Below are positions 4,913-24,593 of a DNA stretch of 64,000 nt, piece after piece (within the stretch, counting starts at the first letter, position 1; every line of letters starts with the position of its first letter). The notes beneath the pieces are model-generated. The model was not told the origin of the DNA. It saw nothing but the letters and a program-made list of their open reading frames with translations, and searched no databases. The position numbers and the translations under genes were made by a program. This DNA comes from Hyalangium gracile (GTDB taxonomy: Bacteria; Myxococcota; Myxococcia; Myxococcales; Myxococcaceae): positions 248,001 to 312,000 of the forward strand of contig NZ_JAHXBG010000006.1 in the NCBI RefSeq assembly GCF_020103725.1, written 5' to 3'.

Positions 4913-5100
4913 GCTCCGTCCTCCTGCTGGAAGTGGGTGTGTGGAGCAAAGGTGCGCATGACGCGAGTGCTCGCATCCGCCGCCTGCTCGCCTGTCCTCC
5001 GGCCGGGTTTGCCGCAAACACGCCCTGGCGCCTGGAGGTGGGTTGGCGTCCGGGGACGGCCCACGCACATTGGCCGGGATCTGCTCAAGGAGGGTAGGAG

Positions 5101-5586
5101 ATGGCGGAGAAGTCCGAGGTGGCGAAGCTGCGCAGCCTGGCCCAGCTGGATGCGGATGCCGTGGGGGCCTACGACGCGGCCATCGCCCGGGTGAGCGAGC
5201 CCCTGGTGCGCGAGCGGCTCAATGACTTCCGCGTGGACCACGTGCGCCACGTGCAGGACCTGAACGCTCTCATCCAGCAGTTCGGCGGCGAGCCGGTGGA
5301 GCTCAAGCCGGACCTCAAGGGCACGGCCATGAAGAGCCTGACGGCCGTCACCAGCATGATGGGCACCGAGGCCGCCCTGGTGGCCATGCTCGGCAACGAG
5401 GAGTTCACCAACCGGGCCTACGAGCTGGCCCTCCAGTTCGACTGGAGCCCCGAGGTGCGCTCGCTCATCCAGAAGAACCGCGAGGACGAGTACCGGCACG
5501 TGACGTGGATTCGCGACGCGGTGCGCACCCGCCCCTGGCTGCGCGAGGGCGCCACCGCCGCGGAAGGCTCGGAAATCCAGGCCTGA
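5101..5586 (+). CDS. Ferritin-like (DUF2383-type) four-helix protein
   Basis: A 161-residue, all-helical soluble protein in the ferritin-like superfamily. Carboxylate and histidine pairs sit in the expected helices (FRVDHVRHVQDL, GNEEFTNRAYELAL, NREDEYRHVTWI). Such proteins are often induced in stress and may bind a di-iron centre, but a substrate cannot be assigned. A very strong ribosome site (AGGAGGG) precedes the ATG. About 90 bp separates it from the downstream lipoprotein gene on the same strand, so co-transcription is possible. Confidence 0.7.
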   Translation: MAEKSEVAKLRSLAQLDADAVGAYDAAIARVSEPLVRERLNDFRVDHVRHVQDLNALIQQFGGEPVELKPDLKGTAMKSLTAVTSMMGTEAALVAMLGNEEFTNRAYELALQFDWSPEVRSLIQKNREDEYRHVTWIRDAVRTRPWLREGATAAEGSEIQA

Positions 5587-5676
5587 GGCCGTTTTGGCGA
5601 GCCCGCCGATATGCCGGGCCGCCCAGAACGTTAAGCTCCGGGGAATTTCCGCCCAATTTCGTCGGGAGGGGCTCGG

Positions 5677-7212: not shown

Positions 7213-7223
7213 CCGGTGGACCT

Positions 7224-7250
7224 GGGGCTCGCGTCGCTGCTGCGAGCCCC
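7224..7250 (+). terminator. Hairpin after the BamC/ChaN-like gene
   Basis: Perfect 9-bp inverted repeat GGGGCTCGC / GCGAGCCCC with a 9-nt loop, 12 nt after the stop codon. No T-tract follows, so it is a candidate terminator or mRNA 3'-end stabiliser. It lies directly ahead of hutF. Confidence 0.5.
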
Positions 7251-7275
7251 CAAGCGGTGACGTAGGCTCGCGCGG

Positions 7276-8661
7276 GTGAGCGACATCACCGTCTATCAGC
7301 CGGACTTCCTCTACCGGCTCGGCAGGTTCCACGAGAACAGCAGCCTGCGGGTGGGCGCGGACGGCCGCATCCTGCCGGAGGGGCCCATCCCGGCGGGAGC
7401 GCGCGTCGTGCGGCTGCCGGGGCGGGTGCTGCTGCCGGGGCTCGTCAACGGCCACTCGCACGCCTTCCAGCGCCTCATCCGCGGCCGCACGGAGTACGTG
7501 GCCTCGGGCAGCGGCATGGATGACTTCTGGAGCTGGCGCGAGGCCATGTACCGCGCCGCCGAGTCCCTCAACCCCGAGGAGGTGTACGTCGCCTCGCGGC
7601 AGGCCTTCCTGGAGATGGCGCTGGCCGGCATCACTGCGGTGGGCGAGTTCCACTACCTGCACCACCAGTCGGACGGCCGGCCCTACGTGGAGCGCAACGC
7701 GCTGGCGTACGAGGTGATTCGCGCCGCGCGGGACGTGGGGCTGCGCATCGTGCTGCTGCGCGTGGGCTACGCGCGGGCGGGCTACCGCGTGCCGGAGAAC
7801 CCACGGCAGCGGCGGTTCATCGACAAGGACGTGGACACCTACCTGTCCTCGGTGGAGGAGCTCGTCCGGGAGGTGGAGGGCCAGTCCGGGGTGAGCGTGG
7901 GCCTGGCGCCGCACAGCGTGCGCGCGGTGCCGCGCGACTGGCTCACCGTGCTGGCGGGGATTCGCGGGCAGCTGCCCGTGCACATGCACGTGGCGGAGCA
8001 GCCCAAGGAGATAGAGGCCTGCGTGGCCGAGTACGGCCTGCGCCCGGTGGAGCTGCTCGAGGAGGTGGGGCTGCTGGAGCCTCGCTTCACGGCGGTGCAC
8101 GCGGTGCACGTGACGGAGGCCGAGGCGCGGATGATGGGGGAGGTGGGAGCCAACGTGTGCGCCTGCCCCTCCACCGAGCGCAACCTGGGAGACGGCATCG
8201 TCGCCGCGGACAGGCTGGTGGGGGCGGGCGTGCGGCTGTGCCTGGGCTCGGACAGCCAGGCCACGGTGGATCTGCTGGACGAGGCGCGGCAGCTCGAGGG
8301 GCACCTGCGGCTGTCGCGGGTGCGGCGCGCGGTGCTGGATCCCGGCGGCGGCGCGGTGGACGGGCTGGCGGCGCGGCTGTTCGAGATGGCCACGGTGAAC
8401 GGCGCGCGGAGCCTGGGGCTGCCCACGGGCGAGCTGGCGGCGGGAGCGCCCGCGGACTTCTTCACCGTGGACGTGAACCACCCGTCGCTGGTGGGCGCCA
8501 GCCCCTCCTCGCTGCTGGCCAGCGTCGTCTTCGGCGCGGACAAGGCGGCGGTGCGCGAGGTGGCGGTGGATGGACGGCTCGTGGTGCGAGACGGCCAGCA
8601 CCCGCGCACGGAGGAGTCGGGCCGCGCCTTCCACGCGCTGGCGCGCAGGCTCTACTCGTGA
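7276..8661 (+). CDS. hutF: Formimidoylglutamate deiminase
   Basis: Amidohydrolase-superfamily enzyme that converts N-formimidoyl-L-glutamate to N-formyl-L-glutamate plus ammonia in the five-step histidine degradation route. The 461-residue protein has the metal ligands of the family: His60 and His62 in LVNGHSHAF, His238 in HMHVAEQ, His274/277 in TAVHAVHV, and Asp325 in CLGSDSQATV. GTG is used as start. It is full length and in frame to its RRLYS C-terminus. No other hut gene is in the window. A broken copy of its last 120 bp lies at 22508-22628, immediately before argE, so the two genes were probably once adjacent. Confidence 0.88.
   Translation: MSDITVYQPDFLYRLGRFHENSSLRVGADGRILPEGPIPAGARVVRLPGRVLLPGLVNGHSHAFQRLIRGRTEYVASGSGMDDFWSWREAMYRAAESLNPEEVYVASRQAFLEMALAGITAVGEFHYLHHQSDGRPYVERNALAYEVIRAARDVGLRIVLLRVGYARAGYRVPENPRQRRFIDKDVDTYLSSVEELVREVEGQSGVSVGLAPHSVRAVPRDWLTVLAGIRGQLPVHMHVAEQPKEIEACVAEYGLRPVELLEEVGLLEPRFTAVHAVHVTEAEARMMGEVGANVCACPSTERNLGDGIVAADRLVGAGVRLCLGSDSQATVDLLDEARQLEGHLRLSRVRRAVLDPGGGAVDGLAARLFEMATVNGARSLGLPTGELAAGAPADFFTVDVNHPSLVGASPSSLLASVVFGADKAAVREVAVDGRLVVRDGQHPRTEESGRAFHALARRLYS
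8542..8661 (+). repeat. Left direct repeat: hutF 3' end (intact copy)
   Basis: The last 120 bp of hutF align in the same orientation with 22508-22628 at about 87 of 120 positions by hand, with a single 1-nt length difference. The two copies bracket the 14-kb oxygenase and beta-oxidation block. Confidence 0.75.
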
Positions 8662-8807
8662 AGGGCTCCGCCCGCTCGCCGATCAAGAAAAAGCAGTGAA
8701 CGGCGAGCACCGGACACTCACGGAAAATCCACAACCAAAACGCAGTCTTGGAGCGTGTCGACCTCGCCGATTCCACTCTCGGTGAGCCCTGACTGACGCG
8801 TTGCGTA

Positions 8808-8836
8808 TTGAGAGGCTTCTCATGAACAGCCTATTT
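8808..8836 (+). promoter_or_regulatory. Candidate promoter of the roxA-like gene
   Basis: TTGAGA (8808-8813), a 17-bp spacer and CTATTT (8831-8836) resemble a housekeeping promoter, though the -10 is weak. The predicted start site, near 8843, would lie inside the operator dyad at 8839-8865, as expected for repression. Confidence 0.35.
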
Positions 8837-8838
8837 GC

Positions 8839-8865
8839 GGGTTGTTGGCACAATGCCAATAACCC
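8839..8865. promoter_or_regulatory. TetR-type operator upstream of the roxA-like gene
   Basis: The core TTGGCA-CAA-TGCCAA (8845-8859) is a perfect dyad. It extends outward, after one unpaired base on each side, with GGGTT on the left and AACCC on the right. The same 15-bp core with one change, TTGGCA-GAC-TGTCAA, occurs at 22460-22474 before the operon that encodes a TetR regulator. It lies about 20 bp ahead of the roxA-like start codon. Confidence 0.7.
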
Positions 8866-8883
8866 CGATGGAGGGCTGCGCGC

Positions 8884-10905
<2,022 letters not shown>

Positions 10906-10918
10906 GCCCGTCCACCCG

Positions 10919-10945
10919 TGTGACGGGCCCTCGAGGCCCGTCACA
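10919..10945. terminator. Bidirectional hairpin between the roxA-like gene and the aldehyde dehydrogenase gene
   Basis: Perfect 11-bp inverted repeat TGTGACGGGCC / GGCCCGTCACA with a 5-nt loop. It begins 13 nt after the roxA-like stop and includes the stop codon of the convergent aldehyde dehydrogenase gene, so one structure can serve both transcripts. There is no T-run on either side. Confidence 0.65.
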
Positions 10946-12347
10946 TGAGGCGCTTGAAGAGGCTGAGCTTGCCGCCATAGGGCGGGTAGCGCAGCGCCAT
11001 GTCGAGCAGAAAGGGCCGCTTCACCACGCTCTTCCTGTGGCTGAAGGCATCGAAGCTGGCCTGGCCGTGGTAGCCGCCCAGCCCGGACTCGCCTACGCCA
11101 CCAAAAGGCAGCCCCTCGGCGGCGAAGTGGACGCACACGTCGTTGGTGACGGCTCCGCCGCTCGAGGTCTCGCGCAGGACGCGCTCGTTCACCGAGGCGT
11201 CGCGCGCGAAGCTGTAGAGGGCCAGCGGCTTCGGGCGGGCGCGCACGAAGCGGATGGCGTCCTCGATGCTCGGACAGTCCACCAGGGGGAGCAGGGGGCC
11301 GAAGATCTCCTCCTGCATCAGCGGGCTCGTCACGGGCGCATCGGTGATGACGGTGGGGGCGAAGAAGCGGCTGGCCGCGTCGCGCTCTCCGCCGAAGGCG
11401 ATCTTCCCGTGGGCCGCGAGCGCGGAGATGCGCTCGAAGTGGCGGGTGCTGATGATGCGGCCGTAGTCGCCGCTCGTCCGAGTGTCATCGCCGTAGAAGC
11501 TCCGGACGGCCTTCTGGACCAGCTCGGTGAAGCGGCCCTTGAGCTCGGGGGGAATGAGCACGTAGTCCGGCGCGATGCACGTCTGCCCGGCGTTGACGTA
11601 CTTGCCCCAGGCGATGCGGCGCGCGGTGACTTCCAGGTCCGCGCTCCGGTCGATGATGCAGGGGCTCTTTCCCCCCAGCTCCAGGATGGTGGGCGTGAGG
11701 TGTCTGGCGGCTGCTTCGGCCACCACCCGGCCCACCTGCGTCCCGCCGGTGAAGAAGATGAGATCCCACCGCTCGGCGAGCAGCGCCTGGCTCTCCTCGA
11801 CGCCCCCCTCGACCACCGAGACGATCTCCGGCGGAAACGCCTCGCTGAGCATCCGGCGGAGCACGCTGGAGGTCGCGGGTGCCAGCTCGCTGGGCTTGAG
11901 CACGGCGGTGCAGCCCGCGGCGAGCGCCCCGATGAGGGGCGCGATGGACAGCTGATAGGGGTAGTTCCAGGGGGCGATGATGAGCGTCACCCCCAGCGGC
12001 TCCGAGTACTGGTAGGCCCGCGCGGGCTGGATGACGATCGGCGCCGAGCCCTTCCTCGGCTTCATCCAGCCCTTCAGGTTCTTGAGGGCGTTCTTGATCT
12101 CACCGTAGATGCTGCCCGCCTCGGTGAGGAAGGCCTCCTCGGGGCTCTTCGAGAGGTCCGACTTGAGGGCGGAGAGGATCTCCGCCTCGTACTTGTGGGC
12201 CACCCGATCGAGCGCCTGGAGCTGTTCCCGTCGCCACTGGAGCGGGAGCGTGACTCGGGTCTCGAAGTAGGCACGCTGTTTCTCGACGAGCGCCTTCGCG
12301 TCGAACGAAGGCGGGACGGCCGCGGGGCGACTGGGACTCTGGACCAT
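10941..12347 (-). CDS. Aldehyde dehydrogenase (class 3-like family)
   Basis: NAD(P)-dependent aldehyde dehydrogenase of 468 residues, the short length typical of ALDH3-type fatty-aldehyde enzymes. Key residues are present: Asn128 in APWNYPYQ, Glu223 in LELGGKSP and the nucleophile Cys257 in NAGQTCIAP. The C-terminal hydrophobic tail recalls membrane-associated fatty aldehyde dehydrogenases. It is the last gene of the nine-gene minus-strand operon, 27 bp after the FadJ-like gene, and its stop codon lies in the shared hairpin. In the proposed pathway it oxidises the aldehyde end of the oligo-isoprenoid product before CoA activation. Confidence 0.85.
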   Translation of the reverse strand: MVQSPSRPAAVPPSFDAKALVEKQRAYFETRVTLPLQWRREQLQALDRVAHKYEAEILSALKSDLSKSPEEAFLTEAGSIYGEIKNALKNLKGWMKPRKGSAPIVIQPARAYQYSEPLGVTLIIAPWNYPYQLSIAPLIGALAAGCTAVLKPSELAPATSSVLRRMLSEAFPPEIVSVVEGGVEESQALLAERWDLIFFTGGTQVGRVVAEAAARHLTPTILELGGKSPCIIDRSADLEVTARRIAWGKYVNAGQTCIAPDYVLIPPELKGRFTELVQKAVRSFYGDDTRTSGDYGRIISTRHFERISALAAHGKIAFGGERDAASRFFAPTVITDAPVTSPLMQEEIFGPLLPLVDCPSIEDAIRFVRARPKPLALYSFARDASVNERVLRETSSGGAVTNDVCVHFAAEGLPFGGVGESGLGGYHGQASFDAFSHRKSVVKRPFLLDMALRYPPYGGKLSLFKRLM

Positions 12348-12374
12348 GGAACGACTCCTTGGAATGGGAGCGGG

Positions 12375-14552
12375 CTACTTCAGGCACTCGCCCTTTTCAG
12401 CCTTCTCGACGAGCGACGCCGGCGGCAGGAAGTGCTTGCCGTAGCGCTCGGCGAGCTCGCGGGCGCGGGTGACGAAGCCGCGCAGCCCGGTGCCGGTGCG
12501 CCCCTCGTAGCCGTTGATGTACTGCACCACGCCCCCCGTCCACGCCGGGAAGCCGATGCCGAGGATGGAGCCCACGTTCGCGTCCGCGGTCGAGCGCAGC
12601 ACGCCCTCGTCGAAGCACCGCACCGTGTCGATGGCCTCGGCGAACAGCATGCGCTCCTTCATGTCCTCGAAGGGGATGGTGTAGCCGGGCTTGGTGAAGT
12701 GCTGGGAGAGCCCCGCCCAGAGGCCCGTGCGCTTGCCGTCCACGTAGTCGTAGAAGCCGCCTCCGGTGGAGCGGCCCTTGCGCCCGTACGTGTCGATCAT
12801 CGCGTCCATGACGGGGTAGCTGCCGTGCTCCATCCACGGCTGGCCCGCGGCCAGGGCGGCGGCCTTCGTCTCGAGGCGGATCTTCCGGGGCAGGGTGAGG
12901 GTGAGTTCGTCCATCAGCTGGAGCGGCGCCGCGGGGTAGCCGGCCTGGAGGCCCGCCTGCTCGATGGAGGCGGGGGAGATGCCCTCGCCCACCATGGCGA
13001 TGGCCTCGTTGAGGAAGGTGCCGATGACGCGGCTGGTAAAGAAGCCCCGGTTGTCGTTGACGACGATGGGCGTCTTCCCAATCTGGACGGCGATGTCCAT
13101 CGCCTTCGCCAGCGTGGCGTCGCTCGTCTTCTTGCCCGCGATGAGCTCGAGCAGCGGCATCTTGTCCACGGGGGAGAAGAAGTGCATGCCGACGAAGTCG
13201 GCCGGCCGCTGCACGCCCTCGGCCAGCAGGGTGATGGGCAGCGTCGAGGTGTTGGAGGCCAGCACCGCGTCCGGAGCGACCACGCCCTCGATCTCCTTGA
13301 AGACCTGGTGCTTGAGCTTCACGTCCTCGAAGACCGCCTCGATGACGAGATCACACCCCGCGAGCGCGGAGGCCTCCGTGGTGGCGTGGATGCGCGCCAG
13401 GAGCGCCTCGCCCTTCTCCTTGGTGGACTTGCCCTTCTGGATGGCCTTCTCCACCAGGTTGACGGAGTACTGCTTGCCCTTGTCGGCGGAGGCCTGGCTC
13501 ACGTCCTTGAGCACCACGTCGATGCCGGCCTTGGCGCAGACATAGGCGATGCCGGCGCCCATCATGCCCGCTCCCAGGATGCCGACCTTCTTCGCCGTGT
13601 GCTGGGGGTAGCCCTTGGGACGGCTGCCGCCCGAGCTGATGTGCTGCATGTCGAAGAAGAACGCCTGGATCATGTTCTTCGCGACCTGGCCGGTGGCCAG
13701 CTCGGTGAAGTAGCGCGACTCGATGGTGAACGCGGTGTCGATGTCCACCTGCGTGCTCTCGACGGCCACGGCCAGGATGGCGCGCGGCGCCGGCATGTTG
13801 GCGCCCTTGAGCTGCTTGCGCAGGTTGGCGGGGAAGGCGGGCAGGTTCGCCGCGAACGACGGGTTGGACGGGGTGCCGCCCGGAATCTTGTAGCCCTTCT
13901 GCTCCCACGGCTGCTGCGAGCTCGGGTTGGCCTTGATCCAGGCCCTGGCCGCGGGCAGGAGCGCGTCCACCGAGTCCACCACCTCGTGCACCAGGCCCAC
14001 CTCCTTGGCCTCCTGGGGACGGTAGCGCTGGCCCTGGAGGAGGACCTTCATCAGCGCGTCCGTGATGCCGAGCATGCGCACCGTGCGCACCACGCCGCCG
14101 CCGCCGGGCAGCAGCCCGAGCGTCACCTCGGGCAGGCCGATCTGCGCGCCCTTGACGTCCGCGGCGATGCGCCGGTGACACGCGAGCGCGATCTCGAGGC
14201 CGCCGCCGAGCGCCGCGCCGTTGATGGCCGCGACCACGGGCTTGCCCAGGGTCTCCAGGATGCGCAGCTGCGCCTTGATCTCCTGGCCCAGCTCGAAGGC
14301 CTGCTTCGCGTCTTCCTTCCTCAGGCGGATGATGTCCTTCAGGTCTCCGCCCGCGAAGAACGTCTTCTTGGCGGAGGTGAGGATGACGCCCGTGATGTCG
14401 GCCTTCTCCTTGGCCAGGCGGTCCACCGTCGCGCGCATGGACTGCACGTAGGCGGAGTTCATCGTGTTGGCGGACTGGCCCGGGTCATCCATGGTCAAGA
14501 CCACGATGCCGTCGTTGTCGCGTTCCCAGCGGATGGTGTTCTGTTCGCTCAT
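12375..14552 (-). CDS. FadJ-like enoyl-CoA hydratase / 3-hydroxyacyl-CoA dehydrogenase
   Basis: A 725-residue bifunctional beta-oxidation enzyme. The N-terminal crotonase domain (about 5-190) has both catalytic glutamates, Glu120 in GGGLE and Glu142 in LPEVTLG, and an oxyanion stretch FFAGGDLKDI. The 3-hydroxyacyl-CoA dehydrogenase part starts near residue 321 with the NAD fold VGILGAGMMGAGIAYVCAKAG, followed by two C-terminal helical domains. It hydrates trans-2-enoyl-CoA and oxidises the 3-hydroxyacyl-CoA. It sits 43 bp after the thiolase gene, as in fadBA-type pairs. Either fadJ or fadB would fit, so no symbol is given. Confidence 0.88.
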   Translation of the reverse strand: MSEQNTIRWERDNDGIVVLTMDDPGQSANTMNSAYVQSMRATVDRLAKEKADITGVILTSAKKTFFAGGDLKDIIRLRKEDAKQAFELGQEIKAQLRILETLGKPVVAAINGAALGGGLEIALACHRRIAADVKGAQIGLPEVTLGLLPGGGGVVRTVRMLGITDALMKVLLQGQRYRPQEAKEVGLVHEVVDSVDALLPAARAWIKANPSSQQPWEQKGYKIPGGTPSNPSFAANLPAFPANLRKQLKGANMPAPRAILAVAVESTQVDIDTAFTIESRYFTELATGQVAKNMIQAFFFDMQHISSGGSRPKGYPQHTAKKVGILGAGMMGAGIAYVCAKAGIDVVLKDVSQASADKGKQYSVNLVEKAIQKGKSTKEKGEALLARIHATTEASALAGCDLVIEAVFEDVKLKHQVFKEIEGVVAPDAVLASNTSTLPITLLAEGVQRPADFVGMHFFSPVDKMPLLELIAGKKTSDATLAKAMDIAVQIGKTPIVVNDNRGFFTSRVIGTFLNEAIAMVGEGISPASIEQAGLQAGYPAAPLQLMDELTLTLPRKIRLETKAAALAAGQPWMEHGSYPVMDAMIDTYGRKGRSTGGGFYDYVDGKRTGLWAGLSQHFTKPGYTIPFEDMKERMLFAEAIDTVRCFDEGVLRSTADANVGSILGIGFPAWTGGVVQYINGYEGRTGTGLRGFVTRARELAERYGKHFLPPASLVEKAEKGECLK

Positions 14553-14595
14553 GGGGTTTTGCTCGAAAGGGTGTCGAAAGGAGAGGGAGAGGGGA

Positions 14596-15807
<1,212 letters not shown>

Positions 15808-15839
15808 CGTGGGTTTCCTTGGGAAACGGTGGAGGGGTT

Positions 15840-16988
15840 CTAGAGGGAGCGGGCGATGAGCTCTTTCATGATCTCGTTCGCGCCGGCAAGGATTCGCAGG
15901 ACGCGGGTATCGGCGAACAGATGGGCGATGGGGTACTCCTTCATGTAGCCGTACCCGCCGAACAGCTGCAGGCACCTGTCCGCGACGATACACGCCTGGT
16001 CGGTGATCCAGTACTTGGCCATTGCCGCCGTGGTGACGTCCAGCTTGCCTTGTAGGTGGGATTCGATGCAGTCATCGATGAAGGAGCGGCAGACGCGCCG
16101 CAGGGTTGCACACTCCGCCAGCTCGAAGCGCGTGTTCTGCAGGGCGAACAGCGGCTTGCCGAAGGCGTGACGTTGCTTGGTGTACTCCACCGTCACATCC
16201 ACGGCGCGCTCCAGGCTCGCCATGCCGATGATGGCCGTGCTCAGTCGCTCCTGGGGCAGCTGCTGCATGAGCTGGATGAAGCCCTGGCCCTCCTCGCCGC
16301 CCAGCAGGTTGACGGCGGGGACCTTCAGGTCGTCGAAGAAGAGCTCGGTGGTGTCCTGGCCCTTGCCGCCGAGCTTCTCGAGGATGCGGCCCCGCTGGAA
16401 GCCGGGCGTGGTGTCGCCGACCTCGGCGCACAGCAGCGAGATGCCGGCGTGGCCCTTCGCGTCCCCGGTCCGCGCGGCGATGATGAGGAAGTCGCAGACG
16501 TAGCCGTTGGAGATGAACGTCTTGGCTCCGCTCACCCGGTAGAAGTCGCCATCACGCACAGCGCGGGTGGAGATGGCCTGGAGGTCCGAGCCCGTCCCTG
16601 GCTCCGTCATCGCGATGGCGCCCACCCACTCGCCGCTGGCGAGCTTGGGCAGCCACTTCTTCTTCTGGGCCTCGGAGGCGTAGGCCAGGATGTAGTGCGC
16701 GACGATGGTGCAGTGCACCGCGAAGCCCATCGAGGGGTCTCCCGCGCGGATCTGCTCCTCGATGAGGATGGCCTCGTGCGCGAACGTGCCGCCGCCGCCG
16801 CCGTAGGCCTCCGGGATGGACATGCACAGGAGCCCCAGCTCGCCCGCCTTCCGGTAGAGCGCCTTGTCCGGGTACCCCTGGGCCACGTGCCTGGGCACGT
16901 TGGGGAGGACTTCCTTGGTGAAGTAGCTGGCCGCGAGTCCTCGCACCTGCTCCAGCTCATCCGAGCTCCACCGGGGGCGTGCCGTCAT
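15840..16988 (-). CDS. Acyl-CoA dehydrogenase (long-chain-like)
   Basis: A 382-residue FAD-dependent acyl-CoA dehydrogenase. Signatures are [16 protein letters not shown] for FAD and substrate binding, [10 protein letters not shown], and the C-terminal [12 protein letters not shown] motif. The C-terminal end, [15 protein letters not shown], resembles long-chain types ([13 protein letters not shown]) and has Ala where medium-chain enzymes have the catalytic Glu of YEGT. The base may therefore come from the helix carrying ASLERAVDV, as in long-chain and isovaleryl enzymes. It forms the 2,3-double bond of an acyl-CoA. It lies 28 bp after a second acyl-CoA dehydrogenase gene. Confidence 0.88.
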
Positions 16989-17016
16989 GTCTGCCTCTCT
17001 CCAATGATGTACCGCT

Positions 17017-18165
17017 CTAGAGTCCGAACGTCTTGCCGATGATGTCGCGCTGGATCTCGCTGGTGCCGCCGAAGACGGTGGAGATGACCGTGGCGCGCAG
17101 GTGCGACTCCATGTCGTACTCGGTGGCGTAGCCGTAGCCGCCCATCATCTGCATGCCCTCGAGCGCCACGCGCTTGGCCGTCTCGGTGGTCTTCAGCTTG
17201 GCCATCGAGGCCTCGCGAGGGAGCATGCGCTCGGGGGCCTCGTCGACCATGGCGGCCACGCGGTAGACGAGCAGCTCGCAGCAGTCGAGCTCCATGGCGA
17301 GGTCGGCGATGCGGTGCTTGATGGCCTGGAAGGAGCCGATGGGCTTGCCGAACTGCTTGCGCTCCTTCACGTACGCGACGGCGTCATCGAAGGCGCGGCG
17401 GCCCCGGCCGAGCATGCTCGCGGCGAGGATGAGCCGCTCGCTGTTGAGCCCCGCCATGAGCTGGGGCCAGGCCTGGTCCACCACGCCCACCACGGCGCTC
17501 TCGGGCACGAAGCAGTCGGTGAGGAAGACGTCATTGACGTCCTTGCCGCCCAGGGTGGGGATGCCGCGAACCTCCACCCCCGGGGTGCTCACGGGGATGC
17601 AGAACATGGTGAGCCCCTCGTGCCGCGAGCCCGAGGCCTGGGTGCGCGCCACGAGCAGCAGGTGGTCCGCCAGATGCGCGTTCGAGCACCACGTCTTCTG
17701 CCCGTTGAGGACGAAGCCTCCCGAAGTCCGGGTCGCCCGGCAGCTGAGCGCGGCGACGTCCGAGCCTGCTCCGGGCTCGGAGATGGCGATCGCCTCCACG
17801 CGGCCCCGGGTGATGCCGCCGAGGACCTTCTGCCGCTGGGCCTCCGTACCGAACTTCGCGTAGGGGCCGGCGGCGACCGCCGTGGTGATGTAGCCGCCCA
17901 CCGGGGCGAGCCAGTAGGAGGTCCGCTCCGCGAAGATGCAGATGTCCGTCATCCCGCCGCCCGAGCCGCCATACTCCGGGGAGAGGCCCGCGCCGAGCCA
18001 GCCGAGCTCGGCCATCTGGGCGTAGAGAGAGGGGCTGTGGGTCTCGGTGCCGTCCCGGGCCAGCGCATCGCGCTGGGCGCGGGTGCCGACCTTGGCGCGG
18101 CAGAACGCGTCGATGGAGTCCGCGAACGAGGCGTGCTCCGGTGTTCTCACATGCATGGCTGGCAT
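17017..18165 (-). CDS. Acyl-CoA dehydrogenase (second copy)
   Basis: A 382-residue acyl-CoA dehydrogenase, clearly different in sequence from its neighbour. It has AIAISEPGAGSDVAAL, TWCSNAHLADHLLL, and MMGGYGYATEYDMESH with the C-terminal VFGGTSEIQRDIIGK. Two distinct dehydrogenases suggest separate work on differing chain lengths, or on the methyl-branched intermediates that polyisoprene fragments would give. It is 34 bp after the acyl-CoA ligase gene in the operon. Confidence 0.88.
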   Translation of the reverse strand: MPAMHVRTPEHASFADSIDAFCRAKVGTRAQRDALARDGTETHSPSLYAQMAELGWLGAGLSPEYGGSGGGMTDICIFAERTSYWLAPVGGYITTAVAAGPYAKFGTEAQRQKVLGGITRGRVEAIAISEPGAGSDVAALSCRATRTSGGFVLNGQKTWCSNAHLADHLLLVARTQASGSRHEGLTMFCIPVSTPGVEVRGIPTLGGKDVNDVFLTDCFVPESAVVGVVDQAWPQLMAGLNSERLILAASMLGRGRRAFDDAVAYVKERKQFGKPIGSFQAIKHRIADLAMELDCCELLVYRVAAMVDEAPERMLPREASMAKLKTTETAKRVALEGMQMMGGYGYATEYDMESHLRATVISTVFGGTSEIQRDIIGKTFGL

Positions 18166-18199
18166 GGCGGGCCCTTGGGTGGGGTGGCGGGTGAGGGGG

Positions 18200-20047
18200 T
18201 CAGTCGTTGGCGTCGCTGGCGTAGAGCGTGGCGATGCGCTCGGAGTATTGCTGGACGAGCACGCGGCGCTTGAGCTTGAGGGTCGGCGTGAGCTCGCCCG
18301 TGGCGGGAGACCACGTCTCCGTCACCACCTCGTAGCGCTTGATCTGCTCGGCGCGGGAGAGCCGGGTGTTGATCGAGGCCACGAGCGACTCGAGCTCGAC
18401 GAGCACCGCCGGCTCACGGATGAGCTCGGCCACCGAGCTGGCCGCGAGGCCCCGGGCCTTGGCCCAGAGCGGCGCCGCCTCCGCGTCGAGGCAGATGAGC
18501 GCCGTCACGTACGGCCAGCCATCTCCAATGGCGATCGCCTGGGCGACGAGGGCGTGCGCGCGCAGCAGGCCCTCGATCTTGGAAGGCGCGATGTTCTTGC
18601 CGCTCGAGGTGATGAGCAGCTCCTTCTTGCGGTCGGTAATGGTGAGGAAGCCGTCCGCGTCGAGCGTGCCGATGTCGCCGGTGGCCAGCCACCCGTCCGC
18701 GTCGACGGCGCTGACGATCTCGCCGTTGGCGGCGAGGTAGCCGGGGAACACGATGGGGCCACGGACGAAGATCTCCCCATCCGAGGCCAGCCGGAGCTCC
18801 AGCCCGGGGATGGGCCGGCCCACGGCGCCGATGCGGAAGCTGTAGGGGAGGTTGAACGTGGCGCAGCCGGTGGTCTCGCTCATGCCCCACACTTCGAACA
18901 CCTTGATGCCGAAGCCGCCGAGGTACTCGAGCACCTCGACGGGGATGGGCGCCGAGCCGCTGCTCGCCCACTCGAGCGCATCCATTCCCAGCGTCCGGCG
19001 CAGGGGCTTGAGCACCGTGGCGTCCGCCTCCGTCACCTTCCTCGCGAGCTCGGGCGGCACGGCCTTTCCCGTGCCTTCGAGGCGGAAGGCCTCCACCGCC
19101 AGCGCGTGGGCGGCGAGGATGGCCTCGCGCTGAGGGGCCGGGAGCGTGCCCAGCTTCGCCCGCAGGGCGCTGGCGAGCTTCTCCCAGACGCGCGGCACGC
19201 CGAAGAACACCGGGGGGCGCACCTTGGCCAGCAGCGGCACCACGCCCGTCGGATCCGCGCAGATGTGCACGTGCAGCGCCTTGTAGAGGGCGCGGTAGAA
19301 GCCGAGCTCGCGCTCCGCGATGTGCGCCAGCGGGAGATAGGCCACGGAGGGGACCTGCATCGGGACGGGGATGCAGAGGTCCACCGCGATCGCCTCGTAG
19401 AAGGCATTGCGGTGGGTCAGCACCACGCCCTTGGGATCTCCGGTGGTGCCGGAGGTGTACATCATCGCGATGGGGTCCTCGGGACGGATGCTCTTCCAGC
19501 CATCCTCGAAGGTCGCGGGGTCCGCCCGGTGCAGCCGGCGTCCCTCGGCCTCGAGCTCCTCGAAGGAGACGAAGCGCTCATCCCCGACCGGGATGGCCGC
19601 CTTGTCGATGACGACGATGCCCTTGAGCGCCACGAGCGTCTCGAGCACCGGCCGCCACCGGGCGACCTCCTCCGCGCCCTCCAGCACCACCACCGTGGCC
19701 GCGCTGTGCCGAGCGACGTAGCCCACCTGCTCGGTGCTCAGCGTCTGGTACGCGGTGCAGGGGATGGCGGAGAGGTGGACCGCCGCGAAGTCGACGACCC
19801 AGTGCTCGGGTCGGCTCGACATCATGATCATCATCCGCTCGCCCTTCTTCAGGCCGAGCGTGGCGAGCCCGCGGGCGACCGCCGCCGTGCGTTCGCGCAG
19901 CTGGGCCCACGTGAGGGTCGTCTCTCCGGCGGTGAGCGCCGGAGAGCTGCCGTACTCCTCGGCGTTGCGCTTGAGCAGGAGCGGCAAGGTGAGCTTGTCC
20001 GCTCGTGAGCTGCTCTGCGCTTCCAGGTCTGCGAACGAAGCACCCAT
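18200..20047 (-). CDS. Long-chain acyl-CoA synthetase (AMP-forming)
   Basis: A 615-residue ANL-superfamily ligase that converts a carboxylic acid, ATP and CoA to acyl-CoA, AMP and PPi. The P-loop MMYTSGTTGDPKG is near residues 195-207. Later motifs are VWGMSETTG, DGWLATGDIG and the hinge/C-terminal KELLITSSGKNIAPSKIEG. The overall pattern (AYLPLAHIAERELG, FFGVPRVWEK) is that of the large FadD15/ACSBG-like group. In context it activates the acid made by the aldehyde dehydrogenase for beta-oxidation. Confidence 0.9.
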   Translation of the reverse strand: MGASFADLEAQSSSRADKLTLPLLLKRNAEEYGSSPALTAGETTLTWAQLRERTAAVARGLATLGLKKGERMMIMMSSRPEHWVVDFAAVHLSAIPCTAYQTLSTEQVGYVARHSAATVVVLEGAEEVARWRPVLETLVALKGIVVIDKAAIPVGDERFVSFEELEAEGRRLHRADPATFEDGWKSIRPEDPIAMMYTSGTTGDPKGVVLTHRNAFYEAIAVDLCIPVPMQVPSVAYLPLAHIAERELGFYRALYKALHVHICADPTGVVPLLAKVRPPVFFGVPRVWEKLASALRAKLGTLPAPQREAILAAHALAVEAFRLEGTGKAVPPELARKVTEADATVLKPLRRTLGMDALEWASSGSAPIPVEVLEYLGGFGIKVFEVWGMSETTGCATFNLPYSFRIGAVGRPIPGLELRLASDGEIFVRGPIVFPGYLAANGEIVSAVDADGWLATGDIGTLDADGFLTITDRKKELLITSSGKNIAPSKIEGLLRAHALVAQAIAIGDGWPYVTALICLDAEAAPLWAKARGLAASSVAELIREPAVLVELESLVASINTRLSRAEQIKRYEVVTETWSPATGELTPTLKLKRRVLVQQYSERIATLYASDAND

Positions 20048-20094
20048 GGGTACCCCCTGCGGTTCACTGGCCAGCTGCTCTGTCTGCGTTCACT

Positions 20095-20916
20095 TCAGGG
20101 ATCGACGTAGAGATCGAGCAGGACGTCGGGGCCGCCCCCGTAGCGGCTGAAGTCGGTGACGCCCTCGGCGCGGAGGACTTCCTCGTCGATGAAGGTGTGC
20201 CCGGTGCAGTCGCGCGGCGAGCGCCGGAGGATGGCCACGGCCGCATCCGCCATGATCTCCGGCGAGCGGGCCCGCTGCATCGACGTGTCGCCCCCGAGCA
20301 GGTTCTTCACGGCGGCGGTGGCGATGAGCGTCCGGGGCCAGAGCGCGTTCGCGGCGATGCCGGCCTCGGCCAGCTCCGCGGCCCAGCCGAGCGTGAGCAG
20401 CGTCATCCCGTACTTGGCCATGGTGTAGGCCGGGTGCTGCCCCATCCAGTGAGGCGCCAGGTTGACGGGGGGCGAGAGCGAGAGGATGTGCGGGTGAGGG
20501 GAGCGGCGCAGGTGCGGGAGCGAGGTGCGCGTCAGCAGGAACGTGCCCCGGAGCTGGATCTGCTGCATCAGGTCGAAGCGCTTCACCGGCAGCTCTTCGG
20601 TCTTGAGCGGCGCGAGGGCGCTGGCGTTGTTGACGCAGAAGTCGATGCCGCCGAAGCGCTTCACGGTCTCATCCACGGCCCGCCGCACGTCCGCCTCTTC
20701 GCGCACGTCGCCGACCACCGCGAGCGCCTTGCCTCCCGCGGCCTCGATCTCCGCGGCCGCCGTGTGCACCGTGCCCGGGAGCCGGGGATCCGGCGTGTCC
20801 GTCTTCGCCAGGAGCGCGACGTTGGCGCCCAGCCGTCCCGCGGCGATGCCGATCGCCAGCCCGATGCCGCGGCTGCCTCCGGACATCAGCAGCGTGCGTC
20901 CCTCGAGCGGCCTCAT
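20095..20916 (-). CDS. Short-chain dehydrogenase/reductase (HSDL2-like)
   Basis: A 273-residue classical SDR. The cofactor motif GGSRGIGLAIG starts near residue 13, NNASA near 97, and the catalytic Tyr164-x3-Lys168 is in PAYTMAKYG. The long insertion after the first helix (KTDTPDPRLPGTVHTAAAE) is typical of the HSDL2/peroxisomal SDR group, linked to lipid breakdown. Its start overlaps the TetR stop by 4 bp (ATGA), so translation is probably coupled. A role on a hydroxy or keto intermediate of the pathway is inferred. Confidence 0.85.
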   Translation of the reverse strand: MRPLEGRTLLMSGGSRGIGLAIGIAAGRLGANVALLAKTDTPDPRLPGTVHTAAAEIEAAGGKALAVVGDVREEADVRRAVDETVKRFGGIDFCVNNASALAPLKTEELPVKRFDLMQQIQLRGTFLLTRTSLPHLRRSPHPHILSLSPPVNLAPHWMGQHPAYTMAKYGMTLLTLGWAAELAEAGIAANALWPRTLIATAAVKNLLGGDTSMQRARSPEIMADAAVAILRRSPRDCTGHTFIDEEVLRAEGVTDFSRYGGGPDVLLDLYVDP

Positions 20917-21584
20917 CGCTTGGGCCCCGACCGGGGCGGCCGGGAGTCACCGCGCGCGGGTGGAGGCTGCTGAGCCAGCTGCGGGAAGACGTCGCGGACG
21001 ATGGTGATGAGCGACTCGCTGAGGAGCAGGTGCGCGTCCTCTCGCGAGAGCGTTCCGCTGCGGATCCACTCGCGGATGGTGGCCTTCACCAGGCCGCCGT
21101 AGGAGCGCATCATCGCGCGGTGCCGCACGTCGCTGCCGACCTCGACCTTGAGCCCGAGGAACTCCAGCGTCTTCGCGGCGGCGACGTCATCCGCCTCCGA
21201 GAGGATGCGCTCGACCTCGGGATCCGCGCCGATGCCCCCCGGGCCGGTGACGGCCACGTAGGTCTTTCCGTGGACCGCCACGGTGTCCAGGTACCACGCG
21301 ACGCTGCGCTCCACCCGCTCTCGTAGGGTTCCAGTCATGGGCACGCTCTCCTCGAGGCCGGGCATGCGCAGCATCCTCTTCACGACCTTCAGATAGAGGT
21401 CCCGTTTCTGCCCGAAGTAGTGGTTGAGCAGGCCTCGCGCGACACCCGCCTCCTTGGCGATGTCCGTCGTGGAGACCTCCGCGTAGGGGCGCTCGCCGAA
21501 CAGCCGCATGGCGCACTTGAGGATCTGCTCCCTGCGCTCGTCCGGCTCGAGCCTCTTCCAGCGTGGGGCGGCGTTCTGGCTCAT
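20913..21584 (-). CDS. TetR-family regulator of the island
   Basis: A 223-residue TetR-type repressor. The N-terminal HTH is clear (RREQILKCAMRLFGER, then STTDIAKEAGVARGLLNHYFG, about residues 18-60) and the larger helical C-terminal domain should bind a ligand, probably an acyl-CoA or related pathway compound. It is second in the operon: its start overlaps the stop of the enoyl-CoA hydratase gene by 4 bp (ATGA), and its stop overlaps the SDR start the same way. The matching dyads at 8839-8865 and 22460-22474 are its likely operators, giving autoregulation plus control of the roxA-like gene. Confidence 0.88.
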   Translation of the reverse strand: MSQNAAPRWKRLEPDERREQILKCAMRLFGERPYAEVSTTDIAKEAGVARGLLNHYFGQKRDLYLKVVKRMLRMPGLEESVPMTGTLRERVERSVAWYLDTVAVHGKTYVAVTGPGGIGADPEVERILSEADDVAAAKTLEFLGLKVEVGSDVRHRAMMRSYGGLVKATIREWIRSGTLSREDAHLLLSESLITIVRDVFPQLAQQPPPARGDSRPPRSGPKR

Positions 21585-22423
21585 CGCTGCTGCTCCCGCC
21601 AGGGCAGGAACGGGGGCAGGTCCCGCTCCACCGTCCGGGTGAACTTCGCGGGCCGCTTCTGCAGGAAGGACATCACGCCCTCCACCGCGTCCGCGTTCTG
21701 GCCCAGGGTCGCGATGAGCTGGCTGTCCAGCTCGAAGGCGGGCTCGGGTGACGGCAGCGCGCTCATCCGGTAGAGCGCCTGACGGATGACGGCCACGGAC
21801 ACCGGCGCGGTGTTCTCGACCAGCTCGCGCGCGAGCGCATAGGCGGCGTCCAGGAGCGCGTCGGGCTCGTGGAGCGACTTGAGCAGGCCCGCGCCGAGCG
21901 CCTCCTCCGCCGGAATCAGCCGGCCACTCACCATCCAGTCCATCGCGCGTCCCATGCCGACGATGCGCGGCAGGAACCAGCTCGAGCCGGCCTCCGGGTA
22001 GATGCCGCGGCGGCTGAAGACGAAGCCGAAGCGGCTGTCCCTGGCGGCCAGGCGGAAGTCGGCGGGGAGGATCATCGTCGAGCCCACGCCCACCGCGGCG
22101 CCTCGGACGGCGGCGATGATGGGCTTTCGGAGCGCGAACATCCGGCGGGTGACACGCGTCGCCGGCTCGACCCAGCCGCCCTCGGGCAGCTCGGTGCGCG
22201 CCGCCTCGAACGACTGGCCGCTCAGGTCCGCACCCACGCAGAAGTCCCTGCCGGCACCGGTCAGCACGACCACGCGCACCTCTTCGTTCGCGTCGGCGGC
22301 CTTGAGCGCTTCGTCCAGCTCATCCGCCATGGTGATCGTGAAGCCGTTCCGCGCTTCGGGACGGTGCAACTCCAGGGTTGCGACCCGGTCCGCGACCGAT
22401 GACCGGATGTGCTGGTAGCTCAT
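21581..22423 (-). CDS. Enoyl-CoA hydratase/isomerase family protein
   Basis: A 280-residue crotonase-fold enzyme and first gene of the operon. It has an oxyanion motif (GAGRDFCVGADLSG), a second conserved Gly-rich stretch (AAVRGAAVGVGSTMILPADFRLAA) and RRGIYPEAGSSWFLPRIVG with a candidate acid/base Glu. The start at 22423 is preferred: AGGAA lies upstream and the predicted transcript begins only about 16 nt earlier. A TTG at 22474 gives a longer frame but falls inside the -35 box. It hydrates, or isomerises the double bond of, unsaturated acyl-CoA; isomerase activity would suit diene intermediates. Confidence 0.85.
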   Translation of the reverse strand: MSYQHIRSSVADRVATLELHRPEARNGFTITMADELDEALKAADANEEVRVVVLTGAGRDFCVGADLSGQSFEAARTELPEGGWVEPATRVTRRMFALRKPIIAAVRGAAVGVGSTMILPADFRLAARDSRFGFVFSRRGIYPEAGSSWFLPRIVGMGRAMDWMVSGRLIPAEEALGAGLLKSLHEPDALLDAAYALARELVENTAPVSVAVIRQALYRMSALPSPEPAFELDSQLIATLGQNADAVEGVMSFLQKRPAKFTRTVERDLPPFLPWREQQR

Positions 22424-22445
22424 GAGTGAGGTTCCTGTGGGATGG

Positions 22446-22474
22446 ATAATGGGAGCTTGTTGGCAGACTGTCAA
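22446..22474 (-). promoter_or_regulatory. Promoter of the beta-oxidation operon
   Basis: On the minus strand a perfect TTGACA (22474-22469), a 17-bp spacer and CATTAT (22451-22446, four of six consensus bases) form a good housekeeping promoter. Transcription would start near 22439, leaving a leader of about 16 nt with AGGAA before the ATG at 22423. The -35 box is inside the operator. Confidence 0.6.
22460..22474. promoter_or_regulatory. TetR-type operator upstream of the TetR operon
   Basis: TTGGCA-GAC-TGTCAA is a dyad with one mismatch. It shares its length, its left half-site and five of six bases of the right half-site with the core at 8845-8859. It covers the -35 box of the operon promoter, a position that would block polymerase. 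Confidence 0.7.
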
Positions 22475-22507
22475 TAGTGGCTCCTGCTCGGTGAAGGAGT
22501 GAGCTTA

Positions 22508-22628
22508 GAGGCCGCGGTGCGTCATGCGGGAGTGGACTGGAAGCTCGGGGTGCGAGACGGTCAACCTCCCGCGAACCGATGGTTCGGGTCGCGCCTTCCC
22601 TGAGCTGGCTCGGAGGCTGTACTCGTGA
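22508..22628 (+). pseudogene. hutF 3'-end remnant (right direct repeat)
   Basis: This stretch aligns with the last 120 bp of hutF. The first part reads EAAVRHAGVDWKLGVRDGQ (hutF: KAAVREVAVDGRLVVRDGQ). After a 1-nt shift it continues GRAFPELARRLYS-stop (hutF: GRAFHALARRLYS-stop). With no start codon, a frameshift and only the C-terminal 40 codons, it is a dead fragment. Its TGA overlaps the GTG start of argE in a GTGA quartet, so argE kept the translational junction of an ancestral hutF-argE operon. Confidence 0.8.
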
Positions 22629-23761
22629 ATGACACGCTGCCCGCGCTGCGCACCACGCTGACGGAATTGGTCGCGCTGGACACCACCTCGGTGCGGCCCA
22701 ACGCGCCGCTCATCGACTATGCGCAGGCGCGGCTGGAGGCCGCGGGCTTCGTGGCCGAGCGCCAGCGCTATATGGATGACGCGGGCGTGGAGAAGGTGAA
22801 CCTGGTGGCGGTGAAGGGCGGCAGCGAGGGGCGCGCGGCGCTGGCGCTGGTGGGGCACTCGGACTGTGTACCGTATGACGCGGCGTGGACGGATGCGCTG
22901 CGGCTGACGGAGCGGGACGGGCGGCTCTACGGGCGCGGCGCGTGCGACACCAAGGGCTTCATCGCCTGCGCGCTGCATGCTGCCACGCGGGCCGAGCAGC
23001 TGAAGGCCCCGCTGATGGTGGTGCTCACCGCGGACGAGGAGGTTGGTCTGGTGGGCGCCAAGAAGCTGGTGGAGGCGGGGAAGGGGCGCGCGCGCCACGC
23101 CATCGTGGGAGAGCCCACGCGCCTGGTGCCAGTGCGAGCCAACAAGGGCTACTGCCTGGGCGAGGTGGAGGTGCGGGGCAAGGAGGGGCACAGCGCGTAT
23201 CCGGACACCGGGGCCTCGGCCATCTTCCGGGCCGGGCGCTTCCTGCAGCGGCTGGAGCAGGTGGCGCTCACGGTGCTGCGCGAGGAGCGGGACGAGAGCT
23301 TCGAGCCGCCCTTCACCACGGTGAACGTGGGGCTCATCTCCGGCGGCAAGGCGAAGAACATCCTGCCGGGCGTGTGCCGCTTCACCGTGGAGTGGCGCCC
23401 CATCCCCGGCCAGTCGCCGCGGCGGGTGGTGGAGCTGATGGAGTCCATCCGCCAGGAGCTGGTGAAGGACGAGCCGGCCTACGAGGCACACATCCGCGTG
23501 CTGCGGACGGATCAGGGCGTGAGCACGCGGCCGGACGCGGAGGTGGTGCGCTTCCTGGCCGAGGCCACGGGGAACGCGCCCGAGACGGTGTCCTTCGGCA
23601 CGGAGGCCCCGCAGCTCACGGCGCTGGGCGCGGAGGCGGTGGTGTTCGGCCCGGGAGACATCCGGATCGCCCACCAGACAGGCGAGTACGTGCCCATCGA
23701 TGATCTCGTGCGCTGCGAGGCGGCGCTCTCGCGCGCCATCACCCGCTTCTGCGGAAGCTGA
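22625..23761 (+). CDS. argE: M20-family amidohydrolase, acetylornithine deacetylase (ArgE-like)
   Basis: A 378-residue zinc-dependent M20 metallohydrolase. The metal site is visible: His78/Asp80 in LVGHSDCV, bridging Asp108 in GRGACDTKG, catalytic Glu138-Glu139 in TADEEVGL, a conserved EPT motif (GEPTRLVP), and a C-terminal His in AHQTGEYV. The dimerisation insert (RGKEGHSAYPDTGASAI) is also present. It probably removes the acetyl group from N-acetylornithine in arginine synthesis, but M20 enzymes of this type act on several N-acyl amino acids, and former linkage to hutF leaves N-formylglutamate as an alternative. The GTG start overlaps the hutF remnant stop; its native promoter may have been lost. 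Confidence 0.75.
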   Translation: MNDTLPALRTTLTELVALDTTSVRPNAPLIDYAQARLEAAGFVAERQRYMDDAGVEKVNLVAVKGGSEGRAALALVGHSDCVPYDAAWTDALRLTERDGRLYGRGACDTKGFIACALHAATRAEQLKAPLMVVLTADEEVGLVGAKKLVEAGKGRARHAIVGEPTRLVPVRANKGYCLGEVEVRGKEGHSAYPDTGASAIFRAGRFLQRLEQVALTVLREERDESFEPPFTTVNVGLISGGKAKNILPGVCRFTVEWRPIPGQSPRRVVELMESIRQELVKDEPAYEAHIRVLRTDQGVSTRPDAEVVRFLAEATGNAPETVSFGTEAPQLTALGAEAVVFGPGDIRIAHQTGEYVPIDDLVRCEAALSRAITRFCGS

Positions 23762-23897
23762 GCCCCGGCGTCAGCCGTCCCTGGCTGCCTGCCTGCTGGG
23801 CAGGGCTGCCCTCCGCCTCCAGCGCGAGCCGTGGAATGCCTGCCGCTCCGGTGCCCCGTGCCTACCGTGTGCGCTAGGCAACGTGGAGGGAAGGCCC

Positions 23898-24593
23898 ATG
23901 GCTCATTTGAGAAGGCGGCATGCACTGGTGGCAGTGCTCGGGACGTCTCTGCTGGTCCTGGGAGGCTGCGCGGGACATCGAACCGAAGTGGAGGACTCCT
24001 GGATCGCCCGGGTCCCCGAGGAGAACCTCGGAGACGTGCGGCAGGCCCAGGCCGCCCGGCACCAGGCGGCGGACGCGGTGATGCGCGCGGACGTGTCGAT
24101 TGGCGACGCGGAGCGGGCGCTGGACGTGGCGCGTCGCAACGTGGAAGCGGCCAAGCACCGCATGGACGCGGAGAAGGCCACGCTCGAGGCGGCTCAGGTC
24201 ACCGGACAGCGGAGTTCCATCGATCAGGCCCAGGCGCAGATCCGCGCGGCCGAGGTGGACCTCGCGGCCGCTCGGGCCCATGTGGGCTGGCGCAAGCAGA
24301 ACGTGGATGCGTGGCGGGCACAGAAGGTGCTCCGCGAGCGTGAGCTCGAGGTGGCGGAGGCCGAGCTCGCCATGGCCCGCTACGTGGCCCTGAAGGAGCA
24401 CGGAGACATCCGGGTGCAGGACATCTCCGAGAGGGATCTGCAGGCGGCCATCAACGACGCCCAGCGCAAGACCACGGAGGCCCGGCGCGAGGCGGACTCG
24501 AAGGCCCAGCAGGCGCAGCAGGCCCGCGTGCAGTGGGAGCAGTTGCGCGGGCAGGCCCGGGGCTACGGCGGCAGCGGCTGGAACCGGCGGTAG
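23898..24593 (+). CDS. Coiled-coil lipoprotein of unknown function
   Basis: A 231-residue lipoprotein: signal peptide with lipobox VLGGC (Cys24), then a long, Ala/Glu/Arg/Gln-rich helical region (about 45-215) with heptad-like spacing. The ending, YGGSGWNRR, is glycine-rich. It resembles periplasmic coiled-coil (DUF4398-like) lipoproteins that bridge envelope layers. GGAGGG lies before the ATG. It follows argE on the same strand by 136 bp. Confidence 0.65.
   Translation: MAHLRRRHALVAVLGTSLLVLGGCAGHRTEVEDSWIARVPEENLGDVRQAQAARHQAADAVMRADVSIGDAERALDVARRNVEAAKHRMDAEKATLEAAQVTGQRSSIDQAQAQIRAAEVDLAAARAHVGWRKQNVDAWRAQKVLRERELEVAEAELAMARYVALKEHGDIRVQDISERDLQAAINDAQRKTTEARREADSKAQQAQQARVQWEQLRGQARGYGGSGWNRR

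Follow-up and report, generated by a model that had tools for sequence, protein, structure and literature searches.

A remnant of the hutF 3' end precedes argE in Hyalangium gracile and probably serves as its ribosome-binding leader

Results and discussion

We analysed a stretch of 64 kb (the window) from the draft genome (G000; 81 contigs, 11.7 Mb) of the soil bacterium Hyalangium gracile, and found that the 121 bp in front of argE are a decayed copy of the end of hutF. The intact hutF lies on the other side of a cluster of rubber-oxygenase and beta-oxidation type genes, and 13,846 bp (8662–22507) separate its stop codon from the relic. Judging from the gene order in relatives, argE once had a hutF directly in front of it, and the scrap is the 3' end of that gene. 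It most likely survives because it carries the putative ribosome-binding site of argE. The features around the two borders are listed here.

5677–7212, plus strand: orf5677, lipoprotein-like, precedes hutF (also found upstream of hutF in G002 and G020)
7276–8661, plus strand: hutF, formimidoylglutamate deiminase, intact, detached from argE (TIGR02022, 559.2 bits, cut-off 413.05)
8543–8661, plus strand: the hutF end that matches the relic in the alignment, with GCAGG where the relic has GGAGG
8662–22507, no strand: island from hutF to the relic, with genes of rubber-oxygenase and beta-oxidation type (from gene content)
22508–22628, plus strand: relic of the hutF 3' end, ~39 codons plus stop, frameshifted (alignment with 8543–8661)
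22524–22628, plus strand: 34-codon ORF from ATG 22524 to a TGA overlapping the argE start (from translation)
22604–22628, plus strand: unchanged 3' part of the relic with GGAGG at 22612–22616 (from the positions of private changes and the GGAG linkage count)
22625–23761, plus strand: argE, acetylornithine deacetylase (TIGR01892, 519.9 bits, cut-off 297.7)

The sequence in front of argE is a hutF pseudogene

The local alignment of the relic with hutF (7276–8661) contains 94 identities in 118 aligned columns and ends on the hutF TGA. Its score was 125, compared with a maximum of 39 among 1,716 random 1.4-kb window segments on both strands, and chance similarity was thus ruled out. The first-pass annotation had described these 121 bp as matching the hutF end, and the similarity persisted in a proper alignment; its hand count of about 87 identities was slightly low, and its single frameshift is correct as the net effect (+1) and in the multiple alignment, which has one gap, whereas the pairwise alignment has three single-base gaps. 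When the genome itself was searched with the relic at E ≤ 0.001, two places were returned, the relic and positions 8543–8661 (78%, E 9.8e-18), hutF being the sole other match.

Only about the last 39 of the 461 hutF codons are covered by the relic, and with its net +1 frameshift it cannot encode the parent protein. At 15 of 119 sites it carries private changes, i.e. bases absent from the hutF ends of G000, G002 and the Hyalangium versicolor genome (G006). These are split 2:7:6 over codon positions 1:2:3 without any third-position bias, and such an even spread indicates that the relic as a whole was not kept as hutF. By homology, by loss of coding capacity and by the codon-position pattern, the sequence is a pseudogene, or gene relic, of hutF. 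The 30 bases to its left gave no convincing match to anything compared (p 0.08–0.17).

We also looked for a general habit of hutF scraps before argE, and it was not seen in 15 argE-upstream stretches. When compared with the hutF end of the window, 14 of these scored 22–37, and the 102 of G062 is explained by the complete hutF of that genome, which ends 63 bp upstream. Against the hutF ends of their own genomes (13 comparable), 12 scored 16–43, the highest value belonging to G035, and G062 scored 194. All 15 argE genes of these stretches have an ATG start behind a leader of their own.

Order of hutF and argE in relatives

DNA matching hutF was present in 105 of 116 genomes, own included, and the loci were compared in the 30 cases returned from this search. 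In nine of them the argE start overlaps the hutF stop by four bases (GTGA) with nothing in between; these comprise all six same-genus relatives compared (G001–G006) and G014, G017 and G020. Three more loci are linked, with argE at −16 to +5 bases from hutF (G008, G030 and G029). In the remaining 18, the window included, argE is either 63–73 bp off (G051, G062, G065) or outside the 1.5 kb fetched, and several of them have an orf5677 paralogue downstream of hutF. The genome G002, a Myxococcaceae metagenome bin, has orf5677, hutF and argE in a row without the island. It had been predicted that some relatives would have hutF directly followed by argE with a GTGA overlap and no island, and these nine loci bear the prediction out. 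The overlap of the relic's TGA with the argE GTG was likewise confirmed, as GTGA is present at 22625–22628. The proposal that an ancestral operon was split by the island holds for the ancestral hutF–argE order and for the origin of the scrap from the hutF end, but insertion exactly at the junction, with copying of the hutF end alone, is the less likely account, given the arrangement in H. versicolor and the absence from the scrap of the changes private to the window's own hutF end (see below).

The protein encoded by orf5677 contains the motif GELHGT and matched no Pfam or NCBIfam family at E 0.001. In genera g17, g23 and g26 (loci L012–L028), hutF is flanked on one side or on both by relatives of orf5677 (~50–58% identity), and in several of these loci the relative sits downstream of hutF, before argE. 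A literature search on the two enzymes in myxobacteria listed no publication dealing with this subject, as judged by title and the start of the abstract.

The relic contains the probable start signal of argE

Within the relic, GGAGG at 22612–22616 forms a Shine-Dalgarno-like motif 8 nt before the argE GTG at 22625, which the first-pass annotation had overlooked. None of the 15 private changes falls in the last 25 of the 119 sites (P about 0.03 if they were uniform); in this part the relic's sequence is CGGAGGCTGTACTCGTGA, the same as in G006. At the same place the intact hutF of the window reads CGCAGGCTCTACTCGTGA, a silent change having removed GGAGG, so that its end has GCAGG where the relic, G002, G006 and G020 have GGAGG. 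Among the 30 loci, GGAG was found in 10 of 12 argE-linked hutF ends and in none of the 18 detached ones (Fisher 2e-6, the true weight being lower since the genomes are related and not independent). Its presence thus tracks linkage to argE in 28 of 30 loci, the exceptions being the linked loci G029 and G008, which lack it; this suggests that the end of hutF also serves argE as a ribosome-binding site. With the spacing of the motif and the linkage both in agreement, the relic is probably the ribosome-binding leader of argE.

That the whole scrap is neutral debris, with GGAGG kept by chance or from shortness of time, seems to us very improbable. Decay is evident from the 15 private changes and the frameshift without codon bias, and a clean stretch with P of only about 0.03 fits neutrality and, together with the two linked loci lacking GGAG, also weighs against retention of the relic for the argE start. 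On the other hand, the intact hutF of the same genome lost GGAGG, and the correlation with argE linkage over the 30 loci speaks against neutral debris as well.

The relic had also been described as having no start. ATG 22524 nevertheless opens a 34-codon ORF that ends on the same TGA, and this ORF is possibly a leader peptide for argE, a candidate recognised by translation. A simple consensus scan of 22380–22700 found no argE promoter on the plus strand; the one site found was on the minus strand.

Overlapping operon genes with a GTGA junction are a known arrangement. The loci described here resemble it in that the argE start overlaps the hutF stop, with GGAG inside hutF, in 9 of 30 cases; the window differs in that the upstream gene is broken and the signal-bearing part alone remains.

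The island between hutF and the relic

The cluster was annotated as follows, starting from its hutF side.

8884–10905, plus strand: RoxA, rubber dioxygenase (NF050033, 1267.3 bits, cut-off 1000)
10941–12347, minus strand: aldehyde dehydrogenase (best NCBIfam match below cut-off)
12375–14552, minus strand: FadJ/FadB-like fatty acid oxidation alpha subunit (best NCBIfam matches below cut-offs)
14596–15993, minus strand: acetyl-CoA C-acetyltransferase, thiolase (NF006090, 705.3 bits, cut-off 514)
15840–16988, minus strand: acyl-CoA dehydrogenase 1 (best matches below cut-offs)
17017–18165, minus strand: acyl-CoA dehydrogenase 2 (best matches below cut-offs)
18200–20047, minus strand: acyl-CoA ligase, FadD-like (best matches below cut-offs)
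20095–20916, minus strand: SDR family oxidoreductase (NF006133, 411.6 bits, cut-off 250)
20913–21584, minus strand: TetR-family regulator (PF00440)
21581–22423, minus strand: enoyl-CoA hydratase, start ATG 22423 (PF00378)

For the hydratase we chose ATG 22423 over TTG 22474 as the start; the matches in G006 and G020 begin at residues 18 and 17 of the longer ORF. By the curated model the first gene is a RoxA rubber dioxygenase, and cleavage of polyisoprene is predicted for its product. Myxobacterial RoxAs are named in passages of PMC10837239. The window's protein (8884–10905) is like these in passing the NCBIfam RoxA cut-off, and unlike known RoxA it is encoded at one end of a beta-oxidation type cluster, with a palindrome in common with the divergent hydratase promoter. 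Full-length RoxA matches were found in 6 of 69 genomes, own included. When plasmids were searched for RoxA, 5 of 72,556 records gave partial matches, to di-haem peroxidases at ~30% identity. We also noticed two further RoxA-like places in G006, at C90:165938–167923 and C3:31463–33349 (42% and 37–44% identical).

Fragments of genes left at insertion or recombination borders are known in general. The relic is of this kind, one border of the island being marked by a decayed duplicate of a flanking gene's end. It differs from such fragments in several respects: no integrase was present among the ten annotated island proteins and no tRNA gene in 5000–24500, a sister genome has the island on the other side of hutF, and the scrap carries the start signal of the next gene. 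Lacking both an integrase and a border tRNA site in these scans, the cluster does not qualify as an integrase-type genomic island.

The hydratase end of the cluster was matched in 33 of 96 family genomes, own included (by our count), and among those 33 the window alone gave one match spanning both the hydratase end and argE. The cluster has another arrangement in four g8 genomes (G013, G033, G041 and G059; loci L076, L077, L178 and L184), where RoxA lies beyond the hydratase end instead of at that of the aldehyde dehydrogenase.

A sister island in Hyalangium versicolor

In H. versicolor (G006) the same cluster, with gene order and orientation unchanged, was found between orf5677 and hutF, and hutF and argE are intact and overlapping. 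A complete orf5677 is located left of this island, and yet to the right of it there is GGCTCTCGCGCCGTTGACC..., which is the end of orf5677 again, followed by the normal orf5677–hutF spacer; the duplicated stretch therefore begins inside orf5677. Up to the stop codon, 17 of 18 bases of the extra end are as in G002 and 16 of 18 as in the window, and its length can be given only as about 13–18 bp because GGCTC also trails the palindrome in the window.

A tree of nine joined island genes from 16 genomes placed G000 and G006 as sisters with support of 0.998, the branch joining them being short, and the RoxA tree (10 genomes) did the same with 0.973. Eight of the ten single-gene island trees paired the two genomes, with supports of 0.27 to 0.98, and those of acd1 and TetR did not. 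The trees of hutF, argE and orf5677 also paired G000 with G006 (0.996, 0.987 and 1.000), G002 being next. No former place of the island could be named in the drafts G000 and G006 from the two island flanks of G020, because the flank DNA matches several different contigs.

Origin of the two arrangements

Both arrangements are in our opinion best explained by a single capture after which the island had hutF on either side, followed by opposite losses in the two lineages, a reading for which our confidence and our doubt are evenly balanced. The RoxA/beta-oxidation cluster would have been captured once, in the ancestor that the window's species shares with H. versicolor, after G002 had split off, and one arrival in that ancestor would account for the shared place of the island. 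The capture would have left the segment from the orf5677 end through hutF on both sides of the island, the structure that would result if a circular DNA with the island and hutF had entered by one crossover. Of the two hutF genes, the left one would then have been lost in H. versicolor and the right one, save its last 121 bp, in the lineage of the window, and the relic may accordingly be the remainder of a second hutF, once complete, in its original place before argE. Retention of the 121-bp piece would be due to its GGAGG and the surroundings of the argE GTG. By way of the 34-codon ORF ending in the GTGA overlap, this piece may still help argE to be translated. As a complete sequence of events, i.e. 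duplication of hutF by the captured cluster, loss of opposite copies in sister lineages, and reduction of the dead copy to a minimal argE start piece, perhaps a 34-codon leader, this history is tentative and somewhat doubtful.

The single capture is favoured by the four-base hutF–argE overlap in all six same-genus relatives, by the sister relationship of the islands in G000 and G006, by the island-free G002, by the extra orf5677 end in G006 and by the lack in the relic of changes private to the window's own hutF end. Several observations speak against it. An island enclosed by two complete hutF copies was found neither in the 30 loci nor in longer stretches of G006 and the window. The acd1 and TetR trees and the short joining branch are further weak points, the extra orf5677 end is very short, and the even codon-position pattern would also fit a scrap that was truncated from birth. 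Searches for additional relics failed or gave weak results: the spacers left of RoxA in the window and G006 do not match each other (p 0.33), that of G006 shows a weak similarity to hutF (p 0.01 and 0.04, uncorrected), nothing convincing was found in G006 that could stem from a lost left hutF, and on the right of the window's island an orf5677 end could not be recognised (p 0.15). The repeats of the supposed crossover segment consist of a hutF end in the window and a short orf5677 end in G006, the full repeat being present in neither.

After single-crossover (Campbell-type) integration, the inserted DNA is bordered on either side by the shared segment. The structure that we propose has the same segment on both island sides, but it is reconstructed from two different leftovers, both copies having been seen together in no genome.

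Two separate insertions would also produce what is common to the genomes, an intact gene on the left and a copy of its 3' end on the right. The island would then have entered at the hutF–argE junction in the lineage of the window, copying the last 120 bp of hutF rightward, and, in an independent event in G006, 1.4 kb further upstream, where a short piece of the orf5677 end was copied. The cluster is found in other surroundings in G020, G028, G013 and G033, and so it does change place, and two of the ten island genes fail to pair G000 and G006. We nevertheless hold this explanation to be unlikely: unless there is a hotspot, it takes a coincidence for two sister islands to arrive with the same orientation within 1.4 kb of each other in a genome of about 10 Mb, and copies of ~121 and 13–18 bp do not fit one fixed target-site duplication. 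That the relic shares none of the five changes private to the window's own hutF end is a further point against it, although an early insertion would allow that.

We also compared the relic with the hutF ends. At the 17 sites where the hutF of G000 and G006 differ, it agrees with G006 at nine, with G000 at five and with neither at three, and its identity is 95/119 with the ends of G006 and of G002 and 91/119 with its own hutF end. In likelihood placements the relic was best as the sister of G006; the position as sister of G002 was 0.5 units worse (AU 0.56) and as sister of its own hutF 1.7 units worse (AU 0.16), so that the test does not separate these three. Placement with G020 (AU 0.037) or with G001, G003, G004 and G005 (AU 0.006) was rejected. 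The near-equal position beside G002 is predicted by no model considered here and counts against the single capture too.

A late regain of hutF could give the slightly closer match of the scrap to G006 and G002: the G006 order would be ancestral, recombination with a relative lacking the island would later have placed a second hutF between orf5677 and RoxA in the lineage of the window, and of the older hutF there only the last 121 bp would have survived the decay. The scrap does occupy the place of the G006 hutF. We regard this course of events as quite unlikely, since the full-length tree makes the window's hutF the sister of that of G006 (0.996) and a more distant origin of the gene is unsupported.

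A scrap of a gene at an island border and a start signal inside the upstream gene are both known in general, and the locus is a neat and fairly well resolved example. With the same gene end present twice in one genome, once with and once without the neighbour whose start it serves, one can see directly how selection acts on a ribosome-binding site that lies within the coding sequence of the gene upstream. If the single capture is true, a large catabolic cluster can enter a gene pair with neither gene lost, by duplication and opposite losses. The two points extend known principles modestly; the case is good local genome history, and ordinary in kind.

Palindromes at the island promoters

Two further features were found at the outer promoters of the cluster.

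8845–8859, no strand: palindrome TTGGCANNNTGYCAA, 24 bp before the RoxA ATG, candidate TetR operator (pattern search, relatives)
22460–22474, no strand: second palindrome, 36 bp before the hydratase ATG, over a −35-like element (pattern and promoter scans)

With one mismatch allowed, TTGGCANNNTGYCAA occurs at two places in the 64-kb window (chance mean 0.28). The hydratase-side palindrome covers the −35-like element of the only promoter-like match in 22380–22700. The two palindromes are likely to be a shared TetR operator, which would tie RoxA to the beta-oxidation operon. Allowing at most one mismatch, the hydratase-side palindrome was present in 14 of 16 genomes, G120 and G122 being those without it (positions read against the layouts), and the RoxA-side palindrome in 7 of the 12 genomes whose stretch holds RoxA, some of these stretches being incomplete. 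G059 has one extra palindrome site, at neither end of the cluster.
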